A stretch of DNA of 64,000 nucleotides from Filobasidium wieringae (Eukaryota > Basidiomycota > Tremellomycetes > Filobasidiales > Filobasidiaceae), in contig BCIV01000002.1 in the NCBI GenBank assembly GCA_001600055.1, positions 1,351,065 through 1,415,064 of the forward strand. The letters are read 5' to 3'. Below, one piece after another: positions 3,822 to 36,814 of this stretch (position 1 is its first letter; the number at the start of each line of letters is the position of its first letter). The notes beneath the pieces were generated by a model. The model saw only the letters and a program-made list of their open reading frames with translations, was not told the DNA's origin and did not search any database. The translations under genes and the position numbers were made by a program.

Positions 3822-5072
3822 ACTGGCTAATTAGCGATGCTCGTAGATGCCCAAATGCTCGGCAAGTCGGTTTGGGTACCACCGATTAACAGCCTTCAAA
3901 TTATAGGCTTCGCAGCTATTCAGATTATTGTGTAGGTAATCCTTGTGCTTTCATGTTACGGTTAGCCGAAAGGTGCTTCGGTTGATTATCGATCTCTCGT
4001 TAAGTTTCCCCGAGATTGGTCAAAAGCTGCGGGCTGAGATCAAAAGCTAGCTACCCAATAGAATGCTGAAGGAGGAGTCATGACTATAATGAAGGGAATG
4101 GACCGCGATGACGACAGGTTGAGGCTAGATCATAGCGTAGACTTCACGCGCTAATGAACAATAATGTTATCGTGTTTCACCGGACGTTGTTGGTGTCCAT
4201 CTAACAGCACAAGGTCATTAGAACGCTGGCACCTGTAGTACCTATATTCATACGTAGTATACGGCCTATGTATATATGTAGCAGGTGGAACTCAAATAGC
4301 ATGTATCATAAGGGTCGAAGACGGGCTCTCACATGCCAGGGACGTGGGTCGGTGCGAGGTCAGTTCTCAGTCTTAGGGTCGATCTGACGCACAATAAGAT
4401 GCTGTAACCCCATATTGTCATGGATATAAGTCTGTGATGGCGATACATGGGAGCATATACCCGTCTCGTGTTATTCCCTTGCATCCATTGCCTTATGTTC
4501 GGTTTGATCGTCCTGAAGGGATGTTACGCAAGCGCCTCCATTCAAGACATTGTTCTTGTACTGATTCGCCTTCGTCCGCTATAATCCTGGCGTAGTTAGG
4601 CTGTCGATCGATTCGTCCTGCGACTATATATGAAGAGACTCGTAACCGATATCTAGGCTCTATGAGGGAAGGCTGAAGCCACGGAGCCTTCGCTGCGATA
4701 GGGGTCATGCCCAGGAATATTATTGTGAGCATTGCCGGTGCTGTCGAATTTGAACTTGCCTGAAACAAGGAAATCTGAGAAATATTAGCGTAATCGATGT
4801 CACAGGCCAGAAACACCTGGCGTTGAGAGTTTAAAGGTGTTCGTCAGGCAAACGGCAGACTGCAAACGCCCTAGCAGAAAAGACTCCGATCGGTAAGGGA
4901 TGGATGTCCTAACGTATAGGGGGTGCGCTGTGAGCACACGAGTGTCTAGCACCTATCAAAACAAGACAAAACCAGAGCAACCTTCAGCGTACCTGTGTTA
5001 ATTGAGCTCATGACTGATGCAGTGCCACATAATCATTATATATCAGACATTGAGTGCAGCCACAGTCTGTAC
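3822..5072. other. Intergenic region upstream of VPS13
   Basis: No gene is supported here. Short open frames exist on both strands (for example 4493-4816 minus), but none shows a family motif or a convincing splice pattern. The first few hundred bases presumably hold the VPS13 promoter. A single CGGCTAA heptamer, in reverse orientation, lies near 3962. Confidence 0.6.
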
Positions 5073-20504: not shown

Positions 20505-22598
20505 CTAATCCTTCTTGACTACATGTTCCCAAATCGCCTTCAGAACCTTTGTCGAGTCCTTTGGGTACCTCTTGAACCCGTCTTCCCGATCAACAAAAGT
20601 CACACCGAATCTGGGTTTGTAGCCTTGGTTCCATTCGAGGTTACTGAGTGGGGCCGATCAGTCGATCATCCTGCCGACCAAACGCAGGATGACTCACTCT
20701 AACAAGCTCCAACCCATGTATCCATCGATCCTCACCCCTTCCTTGACAGCCTCGCACAGTTCGGTGAGGTAGAGATCGAAATATTCTTGTCGCTCTTTAT
20801 CGTCTATGATCTTCTCCAAAGAGAACGTATGTTCGTCGGCGATGGCGAACCCGTTCTCGGTGACGATTATCTCAAGATCGTTCGGGCCGGAATATTCCTT
20901 ATGGACGTGATTCAACAATTGTCTGAAACCCCAGGGAACTAAACGCCGTCCGGAAATTATAAGTCCGATCCTTGCATTACTGCCCACACGGAGGACTGAC
21001 CGGTATGGGGATGCCCATTATGTCCTTTCCTGCCGATCGGAACTCCATCCTTCTCCGCAACCTGTTCTACACCTGCACCAAAGTACTGGAATCCGCTCAC
21101 TTGGCCTTTCATCTCGATCTTCCCCGTAGCCCATTTCGTACCGTAGTGGTTTAGGCCGAAGCTGTGTTTGAGTGAGGGGGGAACCGGATCAGCGCGTGTC
21201 GGAGAGAGAGAGAGAAGAAGGACAAGGGGGGACTTACAAGTCGGAAGAACCTTTGATCAGTGCCCATTCGTCTGGGGTGAAATCGAGCAGTTGATCAGGG
21301 TAATGCGATTTCAGACGCGAGCTGTTCTCTCCTTTGACTGACGATACAGAAACGGGTCATCAGATCGATTGCTTGGGATTTCGTTGAAGATGTCGTCTGG
21401 ACTTACAAATAGGATCCGCGAACTACCACACCAGGAGAATCGCATGATCAGCCTACTACCTCTAACATACCCCAATAGGACCGCAACTCACCCAACCAAG
21501 CGCCATAGCCACAGCCAAGTCGGCCGCGTCCTTCGCTTCCTTGCTCTCGTCGATCGGAACGACCCAATCGATGTTCAAAGTGATCCCGATCCGGCCTTTT
21601 TGTTGGGATTGGTACTTTGTGCGATAGAGATTGACGGAGTGAGCGTGGATGAGGATTTGATGGTACGCTACGCTATGGTGGGGAAGGGGAGGAAAGGGAG
21701 ATGGTTCAGCCTCATCTGGGAAGTTTGGCTAGGGGTAGCTAGACTCACGTCCATGGATCTTTGTCGGCGTTAAATTCGGTGTTGATCACTAATGAATCGA
21801 GCAGTACGTATACCCAAGGCTATCACATAGCGAGAAAACGATATAAGCAAACACTCGTTCAACCTCCTTGATGAACCAGAACTCACTTCATTCAAAGTGA
21901 TCCAATCTTTGACCCGATCCCCGAACCTGTCGAAAAGCAAGTCAGAGTAACTGACGAAGTCTTCGATGATGTCGTTCTTGTTCGGGCATCTGAATCCTTG
22001 ATACTTTTCTTGAAGTGGGAGAGGTAGGTCCCAGTGGAAGAGCGTTATGTAGGGAGTGATACCGTTGGAGAGGAGCGCGTCAATCTGGTTACAGGAGAAG
22101 ATCATTAGCACTGGAAATATCAGGAAGAGATAGGAAGGGAACTTGCGAGCTTGTTATAGTACTCGATGCCTTCTTCGTTGACGGGATCGTCCTTTCCACC
22201 TATCGTTCGAGTACTCTCAGCCCTCGCGCTTATCAACTTAGAAGACAAGAGCTGCACTCACCTAGAGGTTTGACTCTAGACCAACTGACGGAGAACCTAT
22301 ACGCCTTGCATCCGTACTGTTTGAGTAATTCCACGTCCTTCTCCCATAGATGGTACGAGTCGACAGCTTCATTACCGTTCTCTTGATCCTTCAGGACTTT
22401 GTCCCAAATGCTCAGGCCTCTGCCTCCTTGGTCGTATCCGCCTGCGGAAGAACGAAGATAGCATGTCAGGCACTGTGCTACATGAGAAACACCGGAGATC
22501 GTCCTACCTTCGATCTGGTAACTTGCGCTGGCGTAGCCATGGGCAAAATGAGCTGGCAGAACGCCTTTCAAGTGCGCGTTGTTTACTAAAGGTGACAT
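20505..22598 (-). CDS. Beta-glucosidase, GH1 family, intracellular
   Basis: GH1 enzymes hydrolyse beta-glucosides and beta-galactosides with retention. No signal peptide is seen, so cytosolic action after uptake is likely. Motifs in order are HFAHGYASASYQIEG, GGYDQGGRGLSIWD, a YRFSVSWSRVKPLG block, ITPYITLFHWDLPLPLQ, the acid/base Glu in WITLNEPW, FFGLNHYGTKW, the nucleophile Glu in IIVTENGFA, DGYMGWSLLENLEW and a C-terminal RFGVTFVDREDG-type block. About nine introns are present; the one at 22085-22146 has a GC donor (GCAAGT). The segment between the NEP motif and the next PW is about 12 residues shorter than in typical fungal GH1, which may alter the substrate pocket. The start is ATG 22598; the open frame further upstream lacks a family-like sequence. 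It is divergent from the sugar transporter at 23122 and shares its promoter region. Confidence 0.93.
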
Positions 22599-23121
22599 GG
22601 CGAGGGAGCTTGCGATGAGCGCGTTCGAAAGTGTAGATGGACAACGAAAAGGCTGAGTGACTGAGTAAACGCGAGTGACGTGCACTTGCAACCGGCTGTT
22701 ATACCGCTACAGAGCGTACAGACTCTACAGCACCAACAAGTAAACACTCGGCGCGAGGTCAAGGGGAAACCTCGGATAAAGCGAGACCGGCGTTGTCGGT
22801 TATCTCCGGCGATGCGTCATGTCATCTCGGCCTCGGAGATCAACCGGTTGAATAGCTTGACTACTACTGATATCGGCTAAATGGGCCCACGTTTGAATCC
22901 TTCGCTTAAAAAGCGAGGTCGGCTAATAACGAGATTCGAGAGTGGGAAGCCAGAGCCAAGGTTCGTAGGAACGCTCAAGCCGATCTCAGACACCTCTCCG
23001 CTGCTTGACAATTCATCTCGCTTACAGTTATAAAGATCAATCGATGTCGAAGCGAGACTGACGAATTCTAGACGGTCTTGTGCCCGGCATAAGAGCAAAG
23101 CTCGCACAGCAAGCATCCAGG
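22599..23121. promoter_or_regulatory. Shared divergent promoter region of GH1 and sugar transporter
   Basis: A 523-base region between two divergent starts. It contains two CGGCTAA elements, at 22874 and 22920, the first extended to the 13-base form found in two other promoters of the neighbourhood. A CTCGG/CCGAG-type palindromic stretch (about 22825-22845) is also present. Confidence 0.6.
22874..22928 (+). promoter_or_regulatory. Two putative regulator sites CGGCTAAATGGGC and CGGCTAATA
   Basis: Sites at 22874-22886 and 22920-22928, 46 bases apart, near the middle of the GH1/transporter divergent promoter. The first matches CGGCTAA(A/T)T(G/T)GGC, also present at 25723 and, reversed, at 31371-31383. 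A CGG core fits Zn2Cys6 proteins, so the regulator gene at 27901-30802 is the obvious candidate ligand; this is inference. Confidence 0.6.
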
Positions 23122-25445
23122 ATGAACACGTTGGCCACTTTCCCAAGAGATGACGAGAAAACAGAACTCGAAGAAGAGATCAAACCGGATGCTCAACACA
23201 TCGAGCGTTCCTACGCAGTGGTTGAAGGGGTGACATCGTCCCAGCCAAACGTTTCTGCGTTTGCCGATTTGTCATCTCTCGAAACCGTCAAGAAGTTTTG
23301 GCGCCTATATTTGATGGGTGCTGGCGCCGCTTTTGCAGGAGTGTGAGTTCATACCGTAGCCAAATGCGCGATATAGTGGCCAGTATCTAAAACATGGGAG
23401 TCTTATGATCGACGCAGTTATGTTGGGTATACCGTGACGATACCCGGAAATATCGTAGCGAATCAAGGCAAGGCGTCTACTGTTTCTCTCGCTGAAATGT
23501 CACTCATCGCTGGTCTATGCCAAACAGGTTTCGTCGACACTTTCGGAACCTATACGAATCCAGTAACCGGGCTTTTAGAACTAGACGCAGTTCATGTCTC
23601 CCTATGGGGAGGCTCAAATTACGCTGCTCAGGTCATATTTCAATCGTTATCTCCCATCACCGCCGATAGGTACGGGATGAAGATGAACATGTATACCTTG
23701 ACCTCTGCCATGCTCATCGTACGTCCGTCAAAGATGATACTAGACGGAACGAAACGAAACGAACTCGGCTCATTCTTCCCTTATCATTGCTACCAAGACA
23801 GGCCATCATCCTAGAGATCGTAGCGAAGAATTGGATAGTCTACCTCCTTGCAAAAATCTTTTCAGGAATCTCCGCCGCCTATGTGGGAACGGGAGTGATG
23901 GCTTACATGTCAGAGATATCTATGCCCAAGATGCGTGGGGCACTGTTGGGGTTGTATTCATTCATGTTCGGGTTCGGACAATTGGCTGCTGCGCTAGGGC
24001 TACAGATCCTGCAAAAGGTTAGCACGAGGAGTTCTTTGCGATGCGAGAGGAGGTCTCATCTGATCGTTCTTCTAGACGAAGCCTTTGGCCTACCGGGATG
24101 CGTTTTACTCGGAATTCGCCATCCTGGGTATCTGGTTGGTCCCTCTGATCTTTTTACCGGAATCTCCTGGTAGGGAAATTATTCGCGATCGTGTTACAAA
24201 CACTAATTTACCTCGTGACTTCTAGTCTTCCTGTGTAAGAAAGGAAAACACGACAAAGCCAAGAAGTCGTTGAAATTCCTGATCGGGAACGTGCAAGGAT
24301 ATAACGTAGAGCATGAATACTCGGTCATACAATCCGACGTGGAAGCGTCTACTGCCTTGCTCGCTACCTTCGGAACGAACAATTGGGTCGCGCTGTTCAA
24401 GGGGAAAAACCTAATCCGAGCGTTGATGTCTTCCATTCCATTGACTTTCCAGAACATCGTGGGAGCACTTCTGGTCTTCTCTTATACCACGTAAGTGTCC
24501 GTCTTCTGACGATGCCACCTGCTTAGAGACCATTACTTACTATACACCACGGAATAAAGTTATTTTTTCGCGCAAGCTGGACTCAAGGACGCTTTCCAGG
24601 CCAGCCTCATCATCCAATGCATCTTATTATTCGGAATCATCCTATCCTTCTTCTTCGTTGAAAAGCTTGGGAGGAGAAGTTTAACCCTGGCGGGAGGCAC
24701 GATCTGTGGGATCTGCGTCCTCATTATTGGCGGACTTGGTCATATTCCCACCGGTCCCGCAGCTGGGAATGCTCTGATCAGTGTCTCCTGTGTTTGGGTC
24801 TTTTCCTATTCCTTGTCAATGGCACCTATCGGTCAGTAATGTGGCGAATATCCCGATCAGATTCGGCTAGGTATAGATGGCTATCTCTTCCTCCATACAG
24901 GTTGGATTTACATCTCCGAGGTGGCAACCATCTCGCTACGCGCCAAAACAGCTGCATTCGCGGTAGTAATACAATCTTTCACGGGTATATTATTCGTGAG
25001 CGCAAGGTTCAGGAGCCATCGCCAACCGTGTATCAGCGCTGACTGAAGTGACATCATGACGTGGTTTGCTCACAGAATTATACCGTGCCTATCATGCTTT
25101 CTGAGCAGAAAGCTGGTTGGGGTCTTAACATCGGTAATAAACTCTCGAACCTGACGATGCTCGAACCTGTGCTGACATGGACCGAGAAAGGTTTCTTCTT
25201 TGGTGGCATAACTGTCCTTTTCATGCCTCTGGTTTACTTTTTCATGCCGGAGGTGAGCAACGATGGGTCGTTTAGCCCTCGCAAACTGTCACCAAGACTA
25301 ATACTGACGTGTCATCTCCCCAAAGACTAAAGGTCGTTCTTTTACTGAGTTGGATGAACTTTTCACGCGTAACATCCCGTACAGAAGGTTCAGCAAAACC
25401 CCAACTCTTGCTGAACAGGCTAGAGAAGGACAGCTGGAAAGTTAG
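23122..25445 (+). CDS. MFS sugar transporter, alpha-glucoside (maltose) permease type
   Basis: A twelve-helix plasma-membrane sugar:H+ symporter of the sugar porter family. After a charged N-terminal tail come membrane segments in YLMGAGAAFAGV, MLIAIILEIVAKNWIVYLLAKIFSG-like exons, EISMPKMRGALLGLYSFMFGFGQL, LIFLPESP before the central loop, VEKLGRRSLTLAGG, and the PETKGRSFTELDELF signature at the end. The region IYISEVATISLRAKTAAFAVV followed by GWGLNIG and KGFFFGG is like the maltose/alpha-glucoside permease branch, whose members also carry cellobiose and other disaccharides in some fungi. Start: the open frame continues upstream to 23080 only through a GTG, so ATG 23122 is used. Nine or so introns. 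Divergent from the GH1 gene, which suggests joint use of a beta-glucoside. Confidence 0.9.
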
Positions 25446-25885
25446 GTCGGAAAAGGTCCAGGAGTGTTTCTGTAGTACACGATGAATGCAGGAAGGGGCT
25501 GTGTAACTGTAAAGGCACATATCCCGACTTTGAATCGATGAACAATGTATAGGTATTTCACAAGGACCAGGTTATCCAAAGATCCAGGTTGCATACAAAT
25601 TAGAGTAGGTAGGTAACAACACCACTCTGAAGGTCTATCTCGTAAGACGACAGATTCTGGTCACGATTCATTCCCCCCATCAGGAGGGCCGGAAGTACGC
25701 GATCAACGCAGATCATACCGAACGGCTAATTGGGCGGAAAACGGCCGCACGGCTAATTTCGTTCCATCCATTGTAGTTGCTTTGTCTCGCTCAACGCCGA
25801 GGACCGGTGTGTGGTATATAGCGATACAGCTCTCAGCAGCAGAGATTCCTGTACAGTCTGTAAAGTCAATAATAACGTCCGTATA
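25446..25885. promoter_or_regulatory. Promoter region of the first Gfo/Idh/MocA gene
   Basis: The 440 bases between the transporter stop and the oxidoreductase start hold two CGGCTAATT sites (25723 and 25750), 163 and 136 bases before the ATG. Confidence 0.55.
25723..25758 (+). promoter_or_regulatory. Two putative regulator sites CGGCTAATTGGGC and CGGCTAATT
   Basis: Same-strand sites at 25723-25735 and 25750-25758, 27 bases apart. The first is the extended 13-base form shared with 22874 and 31371-31383. GGGCGG and CGGCCG sequences lie between them. Confidence 0.6.
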
Positions 25886-27621
25886 ATGTCATCATCACCT
25901 TTCGTTGTCCACTGGGGGTAAGTTCGGGTCATGGAGATAATATACCTTAAATCGTTCAATAATTTAATTCGGCCTGTCCTTTTCGTTTTCGAAGGATTGT
26001 TGGCTGCGGATGGATCTCTTCTGAATTTGTCAAGGATATCAGCATACAAAGGGAAGACGTCAAGGACGTATATCACGCTATCGCTGCCGTTGGCTCTCGA
26101 GACATCGAAAAGGCGCGCGAATTTGTCAAGGTACGGCACGATCAATCGCTCTGAACTTGGCCATGGGTTGGTTGATGCGAGTCATTATTGTTCACAATCT
26201 GTGCAAATAGAAGTATTGTCCGCTCGGAGCTAACGGCCAGCAGAAACATCTGACTACTGCTTCGGTCGAGTGCCACGGTAGTTACGAGGCCGTCTATCAT
26301 CACGAGGTCACACCCATCACTCCTGATCGTCATCGACACGAAGCTGATGCTGCATATCAAATGATGCGCAGAGAGTTGACGCCGTCTATATCGGCAGCCC
26401 GAATCAGTCTCATTATACGGACGCCTTCAATGCGATTCAAGCTGGCAAGCACTGTTTAGTCGAAAAACCAGCCTGTCTTAATGCTGCCGAATGGAAACAC
26501 TTGTCCATGATGGCGAGTGAGAGAAAGTTGTTCTTGATGGAAGGTAAATGAGTTTTGATGACCAGACAGTGTTCCTCCGCCGGTCACTAACAGTTTGCTT
26601 CGCACGTTTCTTTAAGCTGTTTGGAGCCGGTTCTTGCCCATGACCGATATTCTCCTGTCGAAGCTGCACGAGGAGAGGGCGATCGGAGATCTGAAAGTCA
26701 TCCAATCCGATTTCTCTATGCCTTTTTACAACAAGTGAGTGTAAAGCTAGAGTCAGAACCAGCTCGGTATTGATTATTGATCGAAATAACTACATGAGAT
26801 TGCCGGACACGCATCGATGTCTCTCAATGGATTACGCCGGAGGCCCGTGGTATGACCTCGGACCATACATTCTCCTTGCACCCTTGTTATTGCTCTACAG
26901 AGATCCCAACAATGAACTCACTCGACCTAGTAAGGTCACAGGACATATGCTTAAGGCTCGTACGGGAGTAGATCTTTCCACTACTGTCACGCTCAGTTTC
27001 GATCGATTGGAAGCGGTCGCGATTGGTACTACGAGCTTTGCTTACGCTTCTAATAGCGAGACCAAGGTCACCGTCATCGGGACCAGGGGGTGAGTCTTGC
27101 AGCTTCTTGCGTTGTTGTAGTCACCCAGCTAAAATTGATCGCTTGCACGGCAATTATCTTGTTATTCAGAGAATTGATAGTTCATGACGGTCCTAACAGA
27201 TGGACCAAGGTTACGCTCCGTCGCTTGGATCCTGCGTCGAAGGACCCCGGCGCGCCTATATATCTTCCGGATGAAGTCATTGAACGACCCTTTGTCGGAT
27301 TCGGGCTCATGTTCGAAGCAGATGCAGTTGCCCGCAGTCTGAAAAGTTAGTATATTATCCCTTCTGACTTCCTGGTTGCGATGGGGGTCTCATCGTTCCA
27401 CTTGGCTTGCTGCAGACGGAGATCTAGAGAATGCCCGAATGACTCACGACGATACCGCGCTACAGTTAGAGGTAAGCGAGAGATGATTGGATGGCAAGCA
27501 ACTCTGATCATTTATACCTTATCCTGTTTTTTCTTTTTCTTTTTTTTCGACGACACAGATTATCAACCAGGTACAAGCGGATGGTGATTACATACTACCC
27601 GCAGGGCTGGCGAAGCGATGA
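25886..27621 (+). CDS. NAD(P)-dependent oxidoreductase, Gfo/Idh/MocA family (dihydrodiol / D-xylose dehydrogenase type)
   Basis: Members of this branch oxidise cyclic hydroxyls or the C1 of sugars such as D-xylose and D-glucose to lactones with NADP+, or act on dihydrodiols. The spliced N-terminus reads through the Rossmann motif HWGIVGCGWISSEFVKD, then AIAAVGSRDIEKAREFVK, GSYEAVY, VDAVYIGSPNQSHYTDAF and the signature AGKHCLVEKPACLNAAEW with the catalytic-region Lys, followed by LFLMEAVWSRFLP, DYAGGPWYDLGPY and a C-terminal beta-sheet domain ending LAKR. About seven introns; the last has a strong polypyrimidine tract (27525-27560). No signal peptide, so cytosolic. It lies between the transporter and the regulator gene and faces the latter tail to tail. 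Substrate is not predictable by eye. Confidence 0.88.
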
Positions 27622-27900
27622 TTATGCGGACCAGCCATCTAGGGAGAAAGTGATGCTTCCTGAGATTAGATTGATAAGATGCTAGGAAACTGAGACTCGT
27701 GACACCACTGGACAGCTTCTGATATACTGAACCGCAGCCGTTCGTCTTTACCTCATGGGTTCCAGCCCACAAGAGTATTCCAGTACTCTTGATCAAAATC
27801 CGCATCGACACCAATTCCGTGATCTTCCAAGAATCGTTGCTATTTGAAAACCATATGATTCGAAGCGAAGTCAGCAATCGCCAAGTATAGCATATCTAGT

Positions 27901-30802
27901 TCAAGCGAAGATTACGAGATCAGAGAGAGCGAAGTCTAGATCAGCTTGCTCAGCCACATGCGAATGCCCTTCTGCTTGCATCTCTGTGGCGGCCTGCGGG
28001 GATGGGTGTCGAGTAGGTTGACGAGAAAGTGGACTTTGATACATCTCCAATAGCGTCCGTGAGATGAATCTAGCTACGTAAGCTGGTGCTGATGTTTTGT
28101 CCGAAACAGTATCGCATGTTTCATGAACATTCAAGAGCACGCCTACGATGATCGATTTCATGTAGCCGTGCGTCATCACAAACATCTACGACGTCGCGAA
28201 TCGATCAGCCTGTCGTAGCAGAAGTTAAAGCTTACTCGTGCAACTTGCCCTTTGCATTGTCTGGACGAAAGCGCTGACTTCGATAGCGAGAACGTCTTGG
28301 ACATGTTGCTACAGGATGCGACAATCTGAGGCGCAAGTCGTGCTAAAAATCAAACCGATTGTCCACTTACGAGACCATCGTCCTTTGAAAGCGCTCTCAG
28401 TGTTGCTGCTACTTTATCTGCAGTTATCAATACAGCCGATATGTCTTCATCGTGCTTGGTAACCTCTGCTAGTTGAGCTTCCGATTGAGCTAGATATATA
28501 AGGATAGACATGGCTGAAGCTTCGTGAGCACGAGGGGGCATCTTCCAACGATCGAGACTGTAATCGTCTATCCATTTGACAGCATGTTGGCGCACCAAAT
28601 CACGATGATGTCGAGCCAAGGTCTCCCGAACCATCCTTGAGACTGTCGGATCAGTCAGCGCACCCAGGATGGCCGAGCGAGTTCGATAAAGGCTGAAACC
28701 GCTGTGTTACAGCCACATCTCAGTGCCGTTTCATTTAAAGGGAAGCTACTGTATCCACAGGACAGGCTCACCCAATACTACAGACCAACTTTCGGTCTGT
28801 AGGAGTTAAAAGATGCGCCGCGCGCCGAAACCACATCTCGACATCAGGGATATATTGCGGTGCGATCATCATTGGTCGACCGAAAGATCCACTGAGCGAT
28901 TCAGTCAGACGAAGACTGCATGCTGAGCGAAAGTTTGGAGCCAACACATATCTGCGCATACCTGTATCTGTTAGTGTGATGGCACGCGGTTATCCAGTTG
29001 CAGTAATCTCTGAGGCAATGATATCAATCGAACTTACGAAGAGTCGAAACCTGCACAACGAATACAGGCGCCCCACCATATAAGTCGGAACGTTTAGCTG
29101 CAAGGCTCGAAGATTCATATTACTTTGACGTACAACAAAGACCTGTAGCAAATTGAGAACGAATCTTTCAGCCACGGCTTGGCTTCTCGTCCAAAGACAA
29201 TATTCTTACAGAACCAAGTTCGATCGGCGTCCTATTTCAGCGCACCAATGCTTAGTCATATAAACCGCTTGTCACCTTGAAGAGAAATATCAAGACCTAC
29301 TATCATGCGTTTCGCCAGAAGATCATCTGCTGAGTCTGGAAGTCGATTGAAGATATGCAGATTAAGCTGAAACCCTAGTCTGACCGCATGTCCAACTTTG
29401 AGAAAGGCCGTATTATCTGTAGGACTTTTCCAATAGACCATGATACACAACGCCTGAACGAGTTCGATGTAACATTCCCCCTCGGTCATAGCTCTTGCTA
29501 CCAACTGTTGGCAATGTGAGGATAAGACGGACCAGAGATCTGGGCGGAAGAATCGAGCTGATGCTGCCATTATGGCTGTCAGGAGAGCAGCTGATGCTGA
29601 GCGGACATGGTCGTATGTGTGTACTATGTCGGACAATATAAGCGATCAGCGCTCATGAGCAACGCGGTTCGAAAAATTCTTCGATCATCCGTTTAAGGTA
29701 GCTCACAAGTAGGGTCAAGTAGCGCTATATAAGGCTGTAGCCGCGAGTGAAAACTTCAGACGGTGAAAATTTTGCTGACCGTCAGCCCACTCCCTTTTTG
29801 AAAATACCGACTGAACCATGCTTCAAGGCACTTTACAAGGTCGACGGCTACTTACAGCTGAAACAAATGGCTTCCTTCATGATTCGCTAGCAGTCCTATT
29901 TCGATTGGATCATTAAAGCGGCCCATCCCTGCTCGGCGGGGTTGAGAATGACCATTCTTGCGATGAGAAGGGGGTGACATGGGATCAAGGTATTCGATCA
30001 CATTGACGCTCTTTCCGCTACCAGTGTCGAGCCTTCTTGTCAAAGCCTCTAGAGAGCCGATACCAGTTGAAGATATCAAGGTGTCTGAATTCAGTGTATC
30101 TAGGATTGATAGACCGGCTGGCAAACCAGCTTCTACGCGAGTGGATTCATCGAGTGGTCCAGTGGGATGCGCGTAATGCGCAAGTGGAACAGCGTGGCTG
30201 GACGGGTCTGCGGCGGGCATCTGATTGGTGTTCCTTTCCATAGAGACTATATTAAAACCCATACCATCGATTCCTCCTTGATCGATAGCATCTTCTTGTG
30301 CAGTGACGTTGGAATGACTTGCGTTGTCGTCTGACCTTTCCATGGGCTCCAGTCTGGGACTACATATGTCGACCTCTCAATTCCCCTGAGAACTAGATCT
30401 GTGTTGTGCCAAACTCACTTGGCCCTGGGTTTTCGACCTCGTTTTTCTGAACTATAGGCGCAAGTAAGTTCCAGTCGTTCGCAGCGATCGCAATTTGTCG
30501 AAGGAATGGACGAAGGAACTCGCTCATTTTCAGGCCGGCCTGGTCGACAGCGTACCTGGACGGGAACAGATGTAGATAAAACAAAAGGCAGACGCAGACG
30601 ACCAGGCGTATCGTCCGGTGATTCTCACCTTGGTAGCTCGACAAGGTAAACATCTGCCAGTGCCAATTATCGCGCATTGTTGTCACGCATTCTTGCAGAA
30701 CGGTCAGTCGGCGTATGGATCGTGGGCCGAGTTCACGTACGCTTGAGATTGCCGTTGCCGTCCAGCCGGAAGGTTGGCTCTGGACGTATCAGCAGGAGGC
30801 AT
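27901..30802 (-). CDS. Zn2Cys6 fungal transcription factor, candidate regulator of the sugar cluster
   Basis: The DNA-binding domain is spread over three exons. Exon 1 (30741-30802) ends at the Ala before the first Cys. A 25-base exon (30629-30653) encodes CLPCRATK. Exon 3 (30419-30555) begins VRCRPGRP and carries CDRCERLELTC and a basic EKRGRKPRA tail. Cysteines are at about residues 22, 25, 32, 51, 54 and 61, giving C-x2-C-x6-C-x18-C-x2-C-x6-C; the x18 loop is longer than the usual x5-12. A linker with low complexity follows. Around 29256-29640 lies the fungal_trans middle homology region (TAIMAASARFFRPDLW, EGECYIELVQALCIMVYW, KVGHAVRLGFQLNLH). It is a nuclear factor, divergent from the second oxidoreductase gene and convergent with the first. 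Exon joins in 27901-29250 are approximate. Confidence 0.85.
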
Positions 30803-30894
30803 GTTTGTGCCGGACTAGCTAGAGTTTGTGGGTGCGGACGATGACTTGAATCACCTAACGTCCACCTCGACTTGGTTGTGACGGAAGTATGGGT

Positions 30895-30930
30895 CGGCTA
30901 TTACGCGGTTCGACGGCTAAATAGAAGCCG
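30895..30930 (+). promoter_or_regulatory. CGGCTA sites upstream of the regulator, one in an inverted repeat
   Basis: CGGCTATTA at 30895-30903 and CGGCT-N7-AGCCG at 30914-30930, about 112 bases before the regulator's ATG. An inverted pair of CGG triplets is a classic arrangement for dimeric Zn2Cys6 factors. Presence here suggests autoregulation (inference). Confidence 0.58.
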
Positions 30931-31370
30931 ATAACGAAACGCATGCGAATATTATGAAATTGCGTCATATTCCCACGGGGCGGATAGAGGTCGATACTCT
31001 AATCCGAGCTACTCGCCATGCTCGCATGTCGAACCTGCAAGATCGCTTGCCTTAATTGCCTTGGTGGGTTTCGGTGGCATACGCAAGGCCCGAAACTCTT
31101 GCTGCTTCATTCGACTTCCTACCAGCTGGCGCGGATTGTTTTGTCTTCCGTACTTCGACCGATCTCCGCTCCTCATCATACAGTACTGCTATCAGAGAAG
31201 AAGATACCTGCCGCGGAACTTGTCACCGGCCATCGATACATGATATACATGAGATAGCTTTCAGCTTAGGCTTCTTCTCTGTGCGAATGCTTCACGCATC
31301 GATTCAGCGTTTGAGGGCTGTTTATGTCGGCGTTCAGGCGGATGAGGATCCCGGAATTAGGCGAGACATA

Positions 31371-31383
31371 GCCAAATTAGCCG
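31371..31383 (-). promoter_or_regulatory. Putative regulator site CGGCTAATTTGGC (reverse strand)
   Basis: The reverse strand reads CGGCTAATTTGGC, matching the 13-base consensus shared with 22874 and 25723. It ends 65 bases before the upstream ATG (31448) of the second oxidoreductase. Confidence 0.6.
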
Positions 31384-31447
31384 AACGAGCAAGACGACTG
31401 CAGTTAAAGGCAGAAATCAGGATGGAAACGTGGTTTATGCTTCGACC

Positions 31448-33365
31448 ATGATTCCCTCTGTCAGTCCTCTACTACCTATAACCATGACACTCGAAGCCCA
31501 AGCTAGTGAGCCCCGCCGGATCCTTAATGTCGCGGTGAGCCTTTAGGTTGCATCGCAAGGTAGCTCTCGTTCAATTGTCATACGGGTAGGTGATCGGAGT
31601 CGGCGAGGTTGCAATGGTGACCCATGTAAGCCAAAATTAGCTCTCTGATATCACTGCTTACTAGGCCTGACTCATCATAGCTGCCTACGCTGTCCCTATG
31701 CTCCGACATGTTCCGCACAGTAGCGCTCGTGGATATAAGCCAAGACGCGCTGGAGCACTGTTCTCGGAAATTCCACGTTCCGCATACCTTCGACAGTGTG
31801 GACAAGATGTTGGAACAAGTTCCGTCGGTCGACTTAGTCATGATTATGAATGCCAAGTACGTTCTCCCATATACGAGGATCCGAGTCTACGCTCACCAAC
31901 ACCGAACTCATGCGACTGTAGCGAATATCACGTACGTCTGATTGGAATTCTCCATCTCACGAGGACGTAAGGTAGATCTTACAAGGCGTCTTCTGGCGCT
32001 TCAATAGGCCATTCATGCCATCAAGTCACTCGAGGCGGGGAAACACGTCTTCATTGAGAAACCCATGACTCTCTCCCACGAAGACGGTGCAGCCATCGAG
32101 CGAGCTCGAGTGGCGGCCAACCGAGTGGTGTTTGTAGGATACATGAGAAGGTATGCTACGGCGTTCTTAAGAGTCAAGGAGGAAATGAGAGCCTTGAAAA
32201 AGGGGGATATCAATTATGGTAACCTGCGATTTCCTTGAAGTCATTCGAAGCCAAAATTCACATGTGCTCACAATCAATGCTCCCGCAGTTAGGGTTCGAG
32301 ACATCATTGGCTACGTTAGCTTTTCTTCCGAAATATATCCTGCTTTAGACTAAGAGCGCTAAGGACGGTCAACTACTTAGAATCACTACTTCGTCAACCA
32401 GAGCGGAACGTTTCCTAAACAATTCTCCGGTAGGGAAACCACGAGACCTACTTCGTTAGCAAATCGCGCTGGTCTTTTCGAAACTGACCCGCATGCGAAA
32501 TTCCAGACTTTCCTGAGGCAGCAAAGGTAGAACGACAAGCCCTTTCTCAATCGGTTCATTCTCAAGCTTTGGGAGGTAAAGCGAGTAACAAGAGGGATAT
32601 CATGTCTTGGGGCTTGCTTACTGGACTCGCGAGCCACGATCTGTCAGCGATGAGAGAGCTCATCGGGATGCCTCAAAAGGTACTAGCAGCAACGAGGAAC
32701 GCTGACGGCATGTTCATTACAGTCTTGTTTCAGTTGTGAGTATCGTTAGCAAATAGTTCCCAATTCCTGAGGGAATAATCCCTTTCTAACAATCGTTTTC
32801 TTTCAGTGATGGATTCTGTTGCTACTACGAGGTCAGTCATCGCTATCTGTCGCGCGCCATTTAACAGAACAGCAGCGAGCTCACCGCCTTCTTGGTTTGT
32901 TCGGTCTGACATAGATGGGGATCGGCCCTATCAGACAATTCGACGCTCATATCGAGATCTACTCCAAACAGCGCCACTTCAAAGTAAATTACGATACGTA
33001 AGCCTTTAACCTAGTCATCGGTATCATGCTTGTTCAGAACGATTTATCGATTTTGCCAAACATAGACCGTACGTCAAAGGTCTGCCAATTACAGCCACCA
33101 TCTCAGGATCCAGATTGAACGGAGACCATGTCGAGGAAAACATCCGTCCGACTTACGAGGATGCGTATACGCTCGAGTACCGCGAGCTGTACGGAGCCAT
33201 CGTCCACGGCCAAGATGTCAAGACCGACCCGCTAGATGGTAGGTATCTAAAAGTATAGTGCGAGGTCAATCGATTACTTATAGAAGGCTTTTATCGATCC
33301 CTACAGCGGATCAGGACATGAAGATCTTTGACATGGTTATGGAAAAGATTGTCGACCTTGAATGA
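31448..33365 (+). CDS. NAD(P)-dependent oxidoreductase, Gfo/Idh/MocA family (second copy, different branch)
   Basis: The spliced protein shows RRILNVAVIGVGEVAMVTH (Rossmann), FRTVALVDISQDALEHC, VPSVDLVMIMNANEYH, then AIHAIKSLEAGKHVFIEKPM with the EKP signature, VVFVGYMRRYATAF and a C-terminal domain ending MVMEKIVDLE. Myo-inositol dehydrogenase-like and other sugar oxidoreductases belong here; the substrate is unknown. It is not a close duplicate of the gene at 25886. A 10-base exon, CGAATATCAC (31922-31931), between introns 31857-31921 and 31932-32007 is needed to give the conserved NANEYH motif. The start is ATG 31448 or, 12 codons on, ATG 31484; the second gives the more usual N-terminus. 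About ten introns. It shares a promoter region with the Zn2Cys6 regulator. Confidence 0.86.
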
Positions 33366-34611
33366 AGAAGGAGGGGGTGTTCGTCTAGTCTGGTCAAAGT
33401 CGTATGGTCTGGCAGTCAACAGAGTTACAACTTGCGCTGTAAGAGTGCTATTGATAGTCCCATCCGGTCGAGAGAAACGATGCCTATATCAACTGCGAAC
33501 AGACATAGTTTACTTGTCTTGTCCTGCAGTACGCCATTTTGTTCGATTTTTCAAGCAATTGTACATAGTGCATCGAGAATTCTTGGCCGAACGTGCTGCT
33601 TGGATAAGTCTTGAGTTGAAGAGATGCACCCGGGGTAACTGTATCGCCTGGTATCCTGCTCTACCGTTCCGTATAGCCTCGCAAACTGCCTCGTCGATAG
33701 CTTCGATCTTGACGTGATGAGTGTCATCCAGTTTGGCGAAGGATGGTTCTGCGATCCCGCGCAATGCCTGTCTCGTTAACTGTCCGTGGCTATTCATATT
33801 CGATCGGTCGGTGGTATTCGAGGATCGCCTTCGATAAAGTGGTCCTTACCGACGATGGGGATTCACCGATACTGGCAAGATGACCGAAGAGTGCTAAACC
33901 TAATATCTGGTGTTTAGACATGTATATTCTGATTCCGATTCGTCGGCTACCACTGGCGTTGAAACAGCTATTTCGGTCGAGTCGGTCAAGAGGTTGAGAC
34001 GGCGAAACGTCGCACAGAACCGCATAGTCTGACAACGAACCGCGGTGCGCGAAACGCAACTAACCAATATGGTCACGAGACAGCCCCGCCTGGAATTGTT
34101 TGATGATCGTCTGTTCCTCGTTCCGACGCTAGAAACGCCAACGTAGCGGTGGTTCCGGATCACGAGACTGTGGGTCATGCGGAGTCACACGGGGTAGCAT
34201 GTGGTCGACACGCCCCGTTCTGATCAAGCGAGATTTCTCCGCGTTTCATAGACGCCGAGCCAAAGATCTCGCTCTGCGTTGTGAGACTTGGCATCCCGTG
34301 ATTGATCGATCTCCTCGACTTTACACGGCCCGGCGAAACCGCTTGGGTCACTGGCTTCTAAAGCTGCTATTCGGGGAAATCCCCGCAAGCCGACGATCCG
34401 CAAGCGTGGCAAGATTAGAGCAAACAAGGGGGCCCCCCGGGTCTTTCACGGCAAAACGTTGTCGCGTCTTCATCAACAGGTGTCGCTGGTGGGAACAGCA
34501 CAATGAAAGTATACATATAACGACCAGATGATCGAGGTCGAATGGTTAGGTTCTTGGACATCGCCTCATCCCCATAGCTCATAGCTAAACCACAACCAGA
34601 CCGCATCAACA
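33366..34611. other. Intergenic region upstream of the lactose-permease-like gene
   Basis: About 1.2 kb with no supported gene. Open frames on both strands (33328-33717, 33790-34178, 34199-34531) lack motifs. I did not find the 13-base CGGCTAA element here; a weaker CGGCTAC occurs near 33946. Confidence 0.5.
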
Positions 34612-36814
34612 ATGGCTTCCTCTCCGATGGACGAGAAGAAGGGCGATTTCTATCACGATGAACAGGTCGACGCTGCCGGCGGGCAGGAAAAGTTTACCGT
34701 CGATCAAATCGAGGCCGCCTATTTCAACACCGCGGGAATGTCTTCGAGCGAAGTCTCGGCGGTCAGAAGTGCCGCTTTGGCAGCGGCTCTCAAGCAGAGT
34801 CCCATCAATGCTCGATCCAGGGCTTCCATGATGCTGTACTTCTGCGGTTTCGTCAGTTTCCTCGGAGCTTGTGCAAACGGGTGAGTTCCTACAGCGTTCC
34901 CCGGTCCGAGAGACAATCTGATCGCTAGTCGCACGTAGATACGATGGTTCTTTGTTCTCGGGTATCTCTCCGATGACTCAATATCGAGATCATTTCCAGG
35001 TCGAACTCGCCGGTCCCCAAGTGTCCAAGATCTTCTCGCTCTACAACGCAGGAGCAATGGTCGGAGCGCTCTTCGCTGGACCAATTGCTGATTACTTCGG
35101 AAGACGTGTCGGAATGTTCACCGGTAAGTACAATGCGTCTTTGCTTCTTGTTCCACTCAGCTCTTACCGAGCTGATCGCTTCGAAATTACAGGTGGTGCC
35201 TTTATTGTTTGCGGAGCTTGTATCACGACTGCAGCGAAAAACATCGACATGTTGATTGGAGGTCGATTCATTCTAGGATTTGGTATTGCAATTATGACGT
35301 GAGTCGACCTGGGGATCTTGCCATTTCCGTCGTACTGATTTCCCGCCTCTCAAGTGTCGGAGCTCCTGCTTACATTACCGAGATTGCACCTGCTCACTGG
35401 CGTGGTCGAATGGTCGGTATTTATAACAGTAAGTCTCTTTTATCACCTCCGCAGCCAAGGTTACCTTGAGACTGACTCGACGAGCACAATTAGATGGATG
35501 GAATGGAGGGGGTATTCCTGGTAAGTAATGGTGCCTAATACTCCTCGTCAATCGAGATCTTGTGCTAACGTCAACACAATCGTACAGCTGCTGCCATTTG
35601 TTACGGTTGTTCGTACCTCAAAGGGAACGCCGCCTGGAGAATTCCCATGGCCCTTCAAGGATCTTTCAGTGTCGCTATCATGTTCTGTGTTTTCTTCATT
35701 CCTGAGGTACGACTTTCGTCTGAAGAGTTTGACGGAGTCATCGATTTCTGATGACCTACTTCTCATTGCAGTCTCCTAGGTGGTATGTCCAGCATGGCAG
35801 GGATGAGGAAGCTCTAGCTTTCCTTGTCAAATACCACGGAAATGGCGATCCCAACTCTGCTCTGGTCCGACTCGAAATGGCCGAGATGAAGGCCAGTCGA
35901 GACGCTGACAACGGTTCCGACAAGCGTTGGTGGGACTACAGCGATCTTTTCAGGACTAAGAACGCTCGTTACAGGATGTTGTCCGGTAAGAATTGCGCTC
36001 ATCACTGAGTCTTTTTTCCTCTCGCTCATACGATTCCGGTCCTCTAGTTCTTTTGATCAGTATCTTCGGGCAGTTCAGCGGAAACGGTCTCGGTTACTTC
36101 AACTATGTCATCTACAACAACTTGGGATACACTTCTCCCCAGACTCAACTCGCTCTTACCCTAGGAGGATCTTTCCTCTCTGCCATCTGTGGAGTTACTG
36201 GAGCTGCCTTTGCGGATAAAATGGTGCGCTTTAGCTACAAGTGATCCGATTTATCAGATGCTCATCGATTTCGCCTGCCTCAGCCTCGTGTCAAGGTTTT
36301 GACGATCGGAACTGCCATCTGTGCGGTTTTCCTTGCTATCAATGGTGGTCTTTCCGAGGTCATTGCCCAAATGCCAAAGGATGGTAAAGGTAACCCGATC
36401 ATCACCAACAAAGGTTACGGACAGGGAGCGCTCGCTGCCAACTACCTCTTCGGTGTGGTGTATGCCTTCACGTACACCCCGTTGCAAGGAGTCTATCCTG
36501 CTGAGAACCTTACCAACTCGACCCGTGCTAAGGGTCTCGCCGCGTCCGGTATCATCGTTTCCCTTTTCGGTTTCATCAACACTTACGCTGGTCCAATCGC
36601 GCTCGAGAACATGGGAAACAGGTACATCTTCGTGTTCGTCGCCTGGGATCTTATCGAGGCCGTCGTTTGGTGGTTCTGTGGTGTCGAGACTGTCGGAAAG
36701 ACTCTTGAAGAACTGGAGGAAGCCTACAACGCTCCTTACCCTCCTTTCGCATCCAGGAAGAAGACCAAGATCGCGGTTACCGCCGACAACAGGGTTGTCG
36801 AAGTCGTCGAGTGA
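34612..36814 (+). CDS. MFS sugar transporter, lactose-permease (LAC12-like) type
   Basis: A plasma-membrane sugar symporter. A long cytosolic N-terminal tail of about 75 residues precedes the first helix (MLYFCGFVSFLGACANGYDGSL across an intron). Then follow IADYFGRRVGMFTGG, IGGRFILGFGIAIMT, APAYITEIAPAHWRGRMVGIYN, FFIPESPRWYVQHGRDEEAL, IFGQFSGNGLGYFNYVIYNN, the TPLQGVYPAENLTNSTRAKG segment and the C-terminal VGKTLEELEEAYNAPYPPF block. These are characteristic of fungal lactose permease-like proteins, several of which also carry cellobiose, galactose or other sugars. Eight or so introns. ATG 34612 is preceded by CAACA and is the first ATG of a clear exon. Sits between the Gfo/Idh/MocA gene and the GH5 gene, all on the plus strand. 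Confidence 0.92.

Follow-up and report, generated by a model that had tools for sequence, protein, structure and literature searches.

What protein reads a short DNA word that recurs in front of every member of a five-gene cluster in the yeast-like basidiomycete Filobasidium wieringae? We addressed this question in a window of 64,000 nucleotides (contig BCIV01000002.1, positions 1,351,065 to 1,415,064), in which a glycoside hydrolase, a sugar transporter, two oxidoreductases and a Zn2Cys6 regulator are encoded side by side. The three promoter regions of these adjacent genes hold two, two and three copies of the element WCGGCTAWWW (W, A or T). Because the word is concentrated in these promoters and sparse elsewhere, the cluster-encoded regulator probably docks on it, and our preferred reading is that of an operator of this Zn2Cys6 protein (27901-30802) in a local, activated regulon with autoregulation. 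Few regulator-operator pairs have been described from sugar clusters of basidiomycetes, and here a single locus brings a candidate regulator together with seven putative sites and five targets, next to a site-free neighbour gene and against a low genome-wide background. The cluster genes are:

20505..22598, minus strand: GH1 family glycoside hydrolase gene (PF00232; approximate exon model)
23122..25445, plus strand: MFS sugar transporter gene (PF00083; approximate exon model)
25886..27621, plus strand: Gfo/Idh/MocA oxidoreductase 1 gene (PF01408, PF22725; 9 exons)
27901..30802, minus strand: Zn2Cys6 regulator gene (PF00172; 652 amino acids, 14 exons)
31448..33365, plus strand: Gfo/Idh/MocA oxidoreductase 2 gene (PF01408; approximate exon model)

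Gene models were made with a small splice script and hand correction, with complete readings for the regulator and oxidoreductase 1. For oxidoreductase 2, the first in-frame ATG is at 31448 and the model used begins at 31484. A first-pass annotation of the window had named the same five kinds of gene, which Pfam matches confirmed, and our regulator model, with its complete Zn2Cys6 motif, ends at the coordinates proposed there.

The shared element and its genomic background

The first-pass annotation had described the shared element as a 13-mer, CGGCTAAWTKGGC, in three promoters of the cluster, and we recovered it exactly at all three places and on the strands given. Four further CGGCTA copies that it reported at 22920, 25750, 30895 and 30914 also exist, but the hexamer as such is uninformative, its window total of 20 being near the chance value of 17.5. 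Together these copies form seven sites:

22873..22882, plus strand: site 1, TCGGCTAAAT, with the first 13-mer (22874-22886)
22919..22928, plus strand: site 2, TCGGCTAATA, 46 bp from site 1
25722..25731, plus strand: site 3, ACGGCTAATT, with the second 13-mer (25723-25735)
25749..25758, plus strand: site 4, ACGGCTAATT, 27 bp from site 3
30894..30903, plus strand: site 5, TCGGCTATTA, CGGCTAA without its second A
30913..30922, plus strand: site 6, ACGGCTAAAT, 19 bp from site 5
31375..31384, minus strand: site 7, TCGGCTAATT, with the third 13-mer (31371-31383, minus strand)

Across all seven copies, the base before CGGCTA and the three bases after it are A or T (7/7 in each case), while KGGC (K, G or T), the 3' half of the 13-mer, is present in three of the seven. 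The 13-mer is thus real and specific to the cluster, but the shared unit is WCGGCTAWWW, which describes the element better. Sites occur in both orientations relative to the genes, which fits operators acting at the DNA level and not an RNA leader. For all five genes, a site lies within 280 bp of the start codon.

We searched the 19.76-Mb genome (33 contigs) for the motif and its variants. The exact 13-mer pattern occurs three times, always within this cluster; equal frequency elsewhere, which would have spoken against the annotated regulon, is thus not seen. A uniform base model predicts 2.4 occurrences per genome and 0.008 per window. With one mismatch, the genome has 50 places, all of them outside the cluster; with up to two, 804 against 833 for a reversed control pattern; and with up to three, 31 in the window against 35 expected. 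The comparison with the reversed control indicates that the loose 13-mer is background elsewhere and that only the tight motif is special.

For the heptamer CGGCTAA, the window total of seven consists of six promoter copies and one near 3962, the only other copy, as noted earlier by eye. Shuffled windows averaged 4.5 copies and 18 of 100 reached seven; the total is therefore ordinary and the placement unusual. The gene bodies (2094, 2324, 1736, 2902 and 1917 bp) and the 279-bp convergent gap at 27622-27900 contain no CGGCTAA. Genome-wide, there are 828 copies (reversed control word, 1919), and the extended word CGGCTAAWT occurs 85 times, five of them in this cluster (reversed control, 98).

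WCGGCTAWWW itself is found seven times in the window, each time inside an intergenic promoter of the cluster, and the genome as a whole has 249 copies (reversed control, 367). Its density in the promoters exceeds that in the remainder of the genome ~355-fold, with a nominal Poisson P of 2e-16 that is not a fair value because the motif was refined on these same sites. Among 100 of the 249 places, listed and inspected by eye, the densest other group had three copies in 7 kb on contig 1, compared to seven in 8.5 kb here. The motif is cluster-specific, being present in the promoters of all five genes and rare elsewhere in the genome. CGGNTAAW was rejected as a counting motif, with 13 places in the window, seven of them in the cluster promoters, because it is less specific than WCGGCTAWWW.

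As the motif was chosen after inspection, we drew random triples of segments with the promoter lengths from ~250 kb of this genome, a pool comprising the window outside the cluster and fetched loci, many of them picked for holding the motif or a relative and some overlapping. An equally extreme best 7-mer appeared in 28 of 3000 triples, some 7-mer with at least six copies and present in all three segments in 66 of 3000, and at least 11 of 13 common columns in 12 of 1000. These counts make the 13-mer alone a ~1% event after selection and are what favours the view of a functionless word picked by eye in three stretches. That view nevertheless appears very improbable. The same promoters hold three extra CGGCTAA copies that had no part in defining the 13-mer. 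At the rate of the whole genome, 0.067 copies are expected in the 1609 bp concerned (P of at least three, 4.8e-5), and the three constitute evidence separate from the 13-mer. The A/T context common to all seven sites and the identity of the core with a known binding site, discussed below, likewise speak against chance.

Two other origins of the shared word were considered and rejected. Neither promoter duplication nor a mobile repeat fits, as exact words common to the three promoters reach at most 10 bases and the 13-mer is found in no other place. A CCAAT box came into question through the ATTGG of the second 13-mer, which the other two lack.

Two further features of these promoters were seen. 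In the GH1/transporter promoter, CGGATAAA at 22773-22780 fits CGGNTAAW and is a possible extra weak site. By eye, the stretches at 22917-22940 and 30892-30914, both in divergent promoters, share a longer gapped pattern, GGTCGGCTA-W-TA-(A)-CG-N-G-N-TTCGA; this stretch around sites 2 and 5 is perhaps a second site class with CGNG in place of KGGC as its 3' half.

The cluster-encoded regulator as candidate binder

The 27901-30802 protein contains a complete zinc cluster, C-X2-C-X6-C-X18-C-X2-C-X6-C followed by RGRKPR, which spans three exons that were joined by hand. It matches PF00172 (Zn_clus) with 21.8 bits against a cut-off of 21. When the first 84 residues were compared to the PDB at E values up to 10, AlcR, the activator of the Aspergillus nidulans ethanol regulon, was the sole sequence match (E 6e-4). 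In both proteins the third and fourth cysteines are separated by a long loop, of 18 residues here and 16 in AlcR. As a local regulator, AlcR controls its own promoter and genes nearby; its half-sites are WGCGG and its targets ethanol-use genes, in contrast to the CGGCTAAW sites of this cluster.

We propose that the protein would bind CGGCTAAW half-sites, with the zinc cluster reading CGG and the basic RGRKPR tail or linker contacting the 3' side, which is rich in A/T. With spacings of 19, 27 and 46 bp, the tandem sites would allow two or more molecules to sit side by side. An inducer, perhaps an imported glycoside or an enzyme product, would lead the regulator to switch on the transporter, GH1 and both oxidoreductases, and sites 5 and 6 would serve its own gene. 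Binding, direction of control and inducer are inferred here. In kind, this is an ordinary and well-supported system, in which a fungal zinc-cluster protein would govern its own local cluster.

Direction of control bears on a further alternative, in which the local protein is a repressor released by the inducer, with negative autoregulation. Sites 5 and 6, 93 and 112 bp upstream of the regulator ATG, and site 7, ~65 bp upstream of a start codon, are near enough that a bound protein could block initiation. The sites of the GH1/transporter and oxidoreductase 1 promoters, by contrast, lie 136-322 bp upstream, as is typical for activators, and most described Zn2Cys6 regulators of sugar clusters are activators. 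We consider repression improbable.

Several observations weigh against the regulator of the cluster as the binder, or against the element as its private operator. The link between protein and sites rests on adjacency, and the genome encodes at least 41 other zinc-cluster matches, each a possible binder; the genome-wide search behind this count misses the local regulator because its cluster is split over exons. PF04082, a common but non-universal fungal middle domain, was undetected in the regulator at E values up to 10, to which exon errors in the model could contribute. Site 5 (CGGCTATT) departs at its seventh base and does not match CGGNTAAW, the XlnR half-site. About 1% of random triples hold an equally good common word. 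Two other loci also carry the heptamer in upstream positions. A GH1 gene on contig 8 (~853118; loci L112 and L113) has a single CGGCTAA ~675 bp upstream of its first matched exon, and locus L110 (292-337) has a tandem pair ~150 bp upstream of a frame that looks thiolase-like by eye. With these two loci, the regulon may extend beyond the cluster. The contig 8 copy does not fit WCGGCTAWWW and, by eye, neither copy of the L110 pair does; the pair is possibly chance or a distant target.

A homologue search with the regulator found a single weak match, which carries PF04082, among 7995 scored candidates (28% identity over 29% of the query), and a search with residues 215-470 found none. In the regulator gene model, the intron at 28186-28248 uses a GC-AG donor, and the GH1 model likewise uses one GC donor.

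An XlnR-type word in a basidiomycete

The core of the element coincides with a site described in ascomycete moulds, a point absent from the first-pass annotation. XlnR prefers CGGNTAAW, with CGGCTAAA named as preferred site (PMC6486530); the motif of Aspergillus oryzae XlnR from genomic systematic evolution of ligands by exponential enrichment (gSELEX) is (c/a)GGcT(A/g)(A/t)(a/t) (PMC6323846); and XYR1 binds GGCTAA and ACE2 binds GGCTAATAA (PMC5468973). The operator reading gains support from this identity of the core with the site reported for a Zn2Cys6 regulator of sugar genes. Six of the seven sites fit CGGNTAAW, and the core CGGCTAAW is common to this cluster and the XlnR/XYR1 systems of Aspergillus and Trichoderma. 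Double sites, a Zn2Cys6 binder (a candidate one here) and glycoside hydrolase and sugar gene targets are further likenesses. Unlike in those systems, the sites are confined to one cluster, with the candidate binder encoded inside, and the demonstrated likeness of the local regulator to XlnR is limited to the zinc cluster, PF04082 being undetected. The ACE2 word of Trichoderma reesei is contained exactly in site 2 and absent from the other six sites.

The match raises the alternative that the sites are true operators of another Zn2Cys6 protein encoded elsewhere, such as a general sugar or plant-biomass regulator, with the local protein reading something else. XlnR and XYR1 are not encoded beside their targets, and the many zinc-cluster matches of the genome provide candidates. 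A putative XlnR zinc-cluster fragment matched 12 zinc-cluster-like places at E values up to 1 (best, 3.1e-6), with 33-48% identity over 26-50 residues, but these matches show what zinc clusters generally share; against the local regulator, the same fragment gave 28% identity with a 13-residue gap. A general regulator should moreover have many multi-site promoters, whereas the sites are gathered at a single locus. Of the 80 other CGGCTAAWT places, three (L031, L055 and L069) have another CGGCTAA at most 300 bp away, and two of these three fall in long open frames. In addition, a survey reports that orthologues of XlnR, AraR and five further plant-biomass activators are missing from basidiomycetes (PMC3998117). 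We therefore regard a distant binder as unlikely, and the cluster's own protein as the probable one.

Among basidiomycetes, a comparison is offered by the cellulase activators Ace3/Roc1, Zn2Cys6 regulators of glycoside hydrolases and sugar transporters, as proposed for the protein here. Leaving aside the repressor Cre1/CreA, one study describes Ace3 as the sole plant-biomass regulator for which both phyla have predicted orthologues, and direct promoter binding of DsAce3 as yet to be demonstrated (PMC12997857). Members of that clade have PF04082, undetected in the local regulator, and their targets do not form one cluster. No Roc1 binding motif was found in the literature. Nor did we find a Tremellomycete cluster of this kind in the portions of the literature consulted, and titles and abstract openings of papers on basidiomycete GGCTAA or Cryptococcus CGGCTAA do not describe the element.

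Interest is added by the fact that the proposed operator is the XlnR word although the fungus is expected to have no XlnR. Tentatively, and with the balance still against it, a basidiomycete without XlnR might use the CGGCTAAW sugar code through a non-orthologous, AlcR-like Zn2Cys6 protein restricted to a single catabolic cluster, either by convergence or because the code predates the split between Ascomycota and Basidiomycota and outlived its original regulator. If a non-orthologous protein does read an XlnR-type word, the locus would be a clean case of one cis code with different regulators.

Other loci, cluster enzymes and neighbouring genes

Elsewhere in the genome, paired heptamers are rare. 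Same-strand CGGCTAA pairs with 4-34 bp between copies number three, one of them here (control, three), and those with 35-65 bp number two, again one of them here (control, two); L110 is one of the pairs outside the cluster. Three candidates for a wider regulon were rejected. The CGGCTAAWT places of L031 (forkhead-like by eye) and L069 fall in long open frames, as do the two of L042 (dynein-like by eye), which lie 1.5 kb apart. The stretches retrieved for the three other GH1 loci of the genome, which start 1.5 kb ahead of the first matched exon, contain no WCGGCTAWWW.

The nearest solved structures of the cluster's GH1 protein are beta-glucosidases, and the nearest solved relative of oxidoreductase 1 is a dimeric dihydrodiol dehydrogenase (E 4e-26). 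Oxidoreductase 2 has DgpA and inositol dehydrogenases as longer-range solved relatives (best E 4.6e-14, for DgpA) and, among all proteins, matches in Cryptococcus, Kwoniella, Vanrija and Saitozyma with 57-60% identity, which point to a tremellomycete as the most likely source. DgpA is a glycoside-oxidising enzyme. Two Gfo/Idh/MocA enzymes beside a GH1 protein may point to oxidative keto-glycoside handling of an imported glycoside and not to plain hydrolysis.

The five-gene set proposed in the first-pass annotation holds in that a site lies near each gene; as a correction to it, an adjacent sixth gene has none:

34612-36814: second MFS sugar transporter gene, immediately downstream of oxidoreductase 2 (PF00083, matched by a piece of 189 residues)

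Its 5' region contains no GGCTAA and one non-matching CGGCTA at 33944. With this neighbouring region free of sites, those of the window stop where the five genes stop. The second transporter may be a boundary gene, or a cluster member under other control. On the other side, the upstream neighbour of the cluster encodes an adenylosuccinate synthetase (PF00709, matched by a piece of 118 residues).

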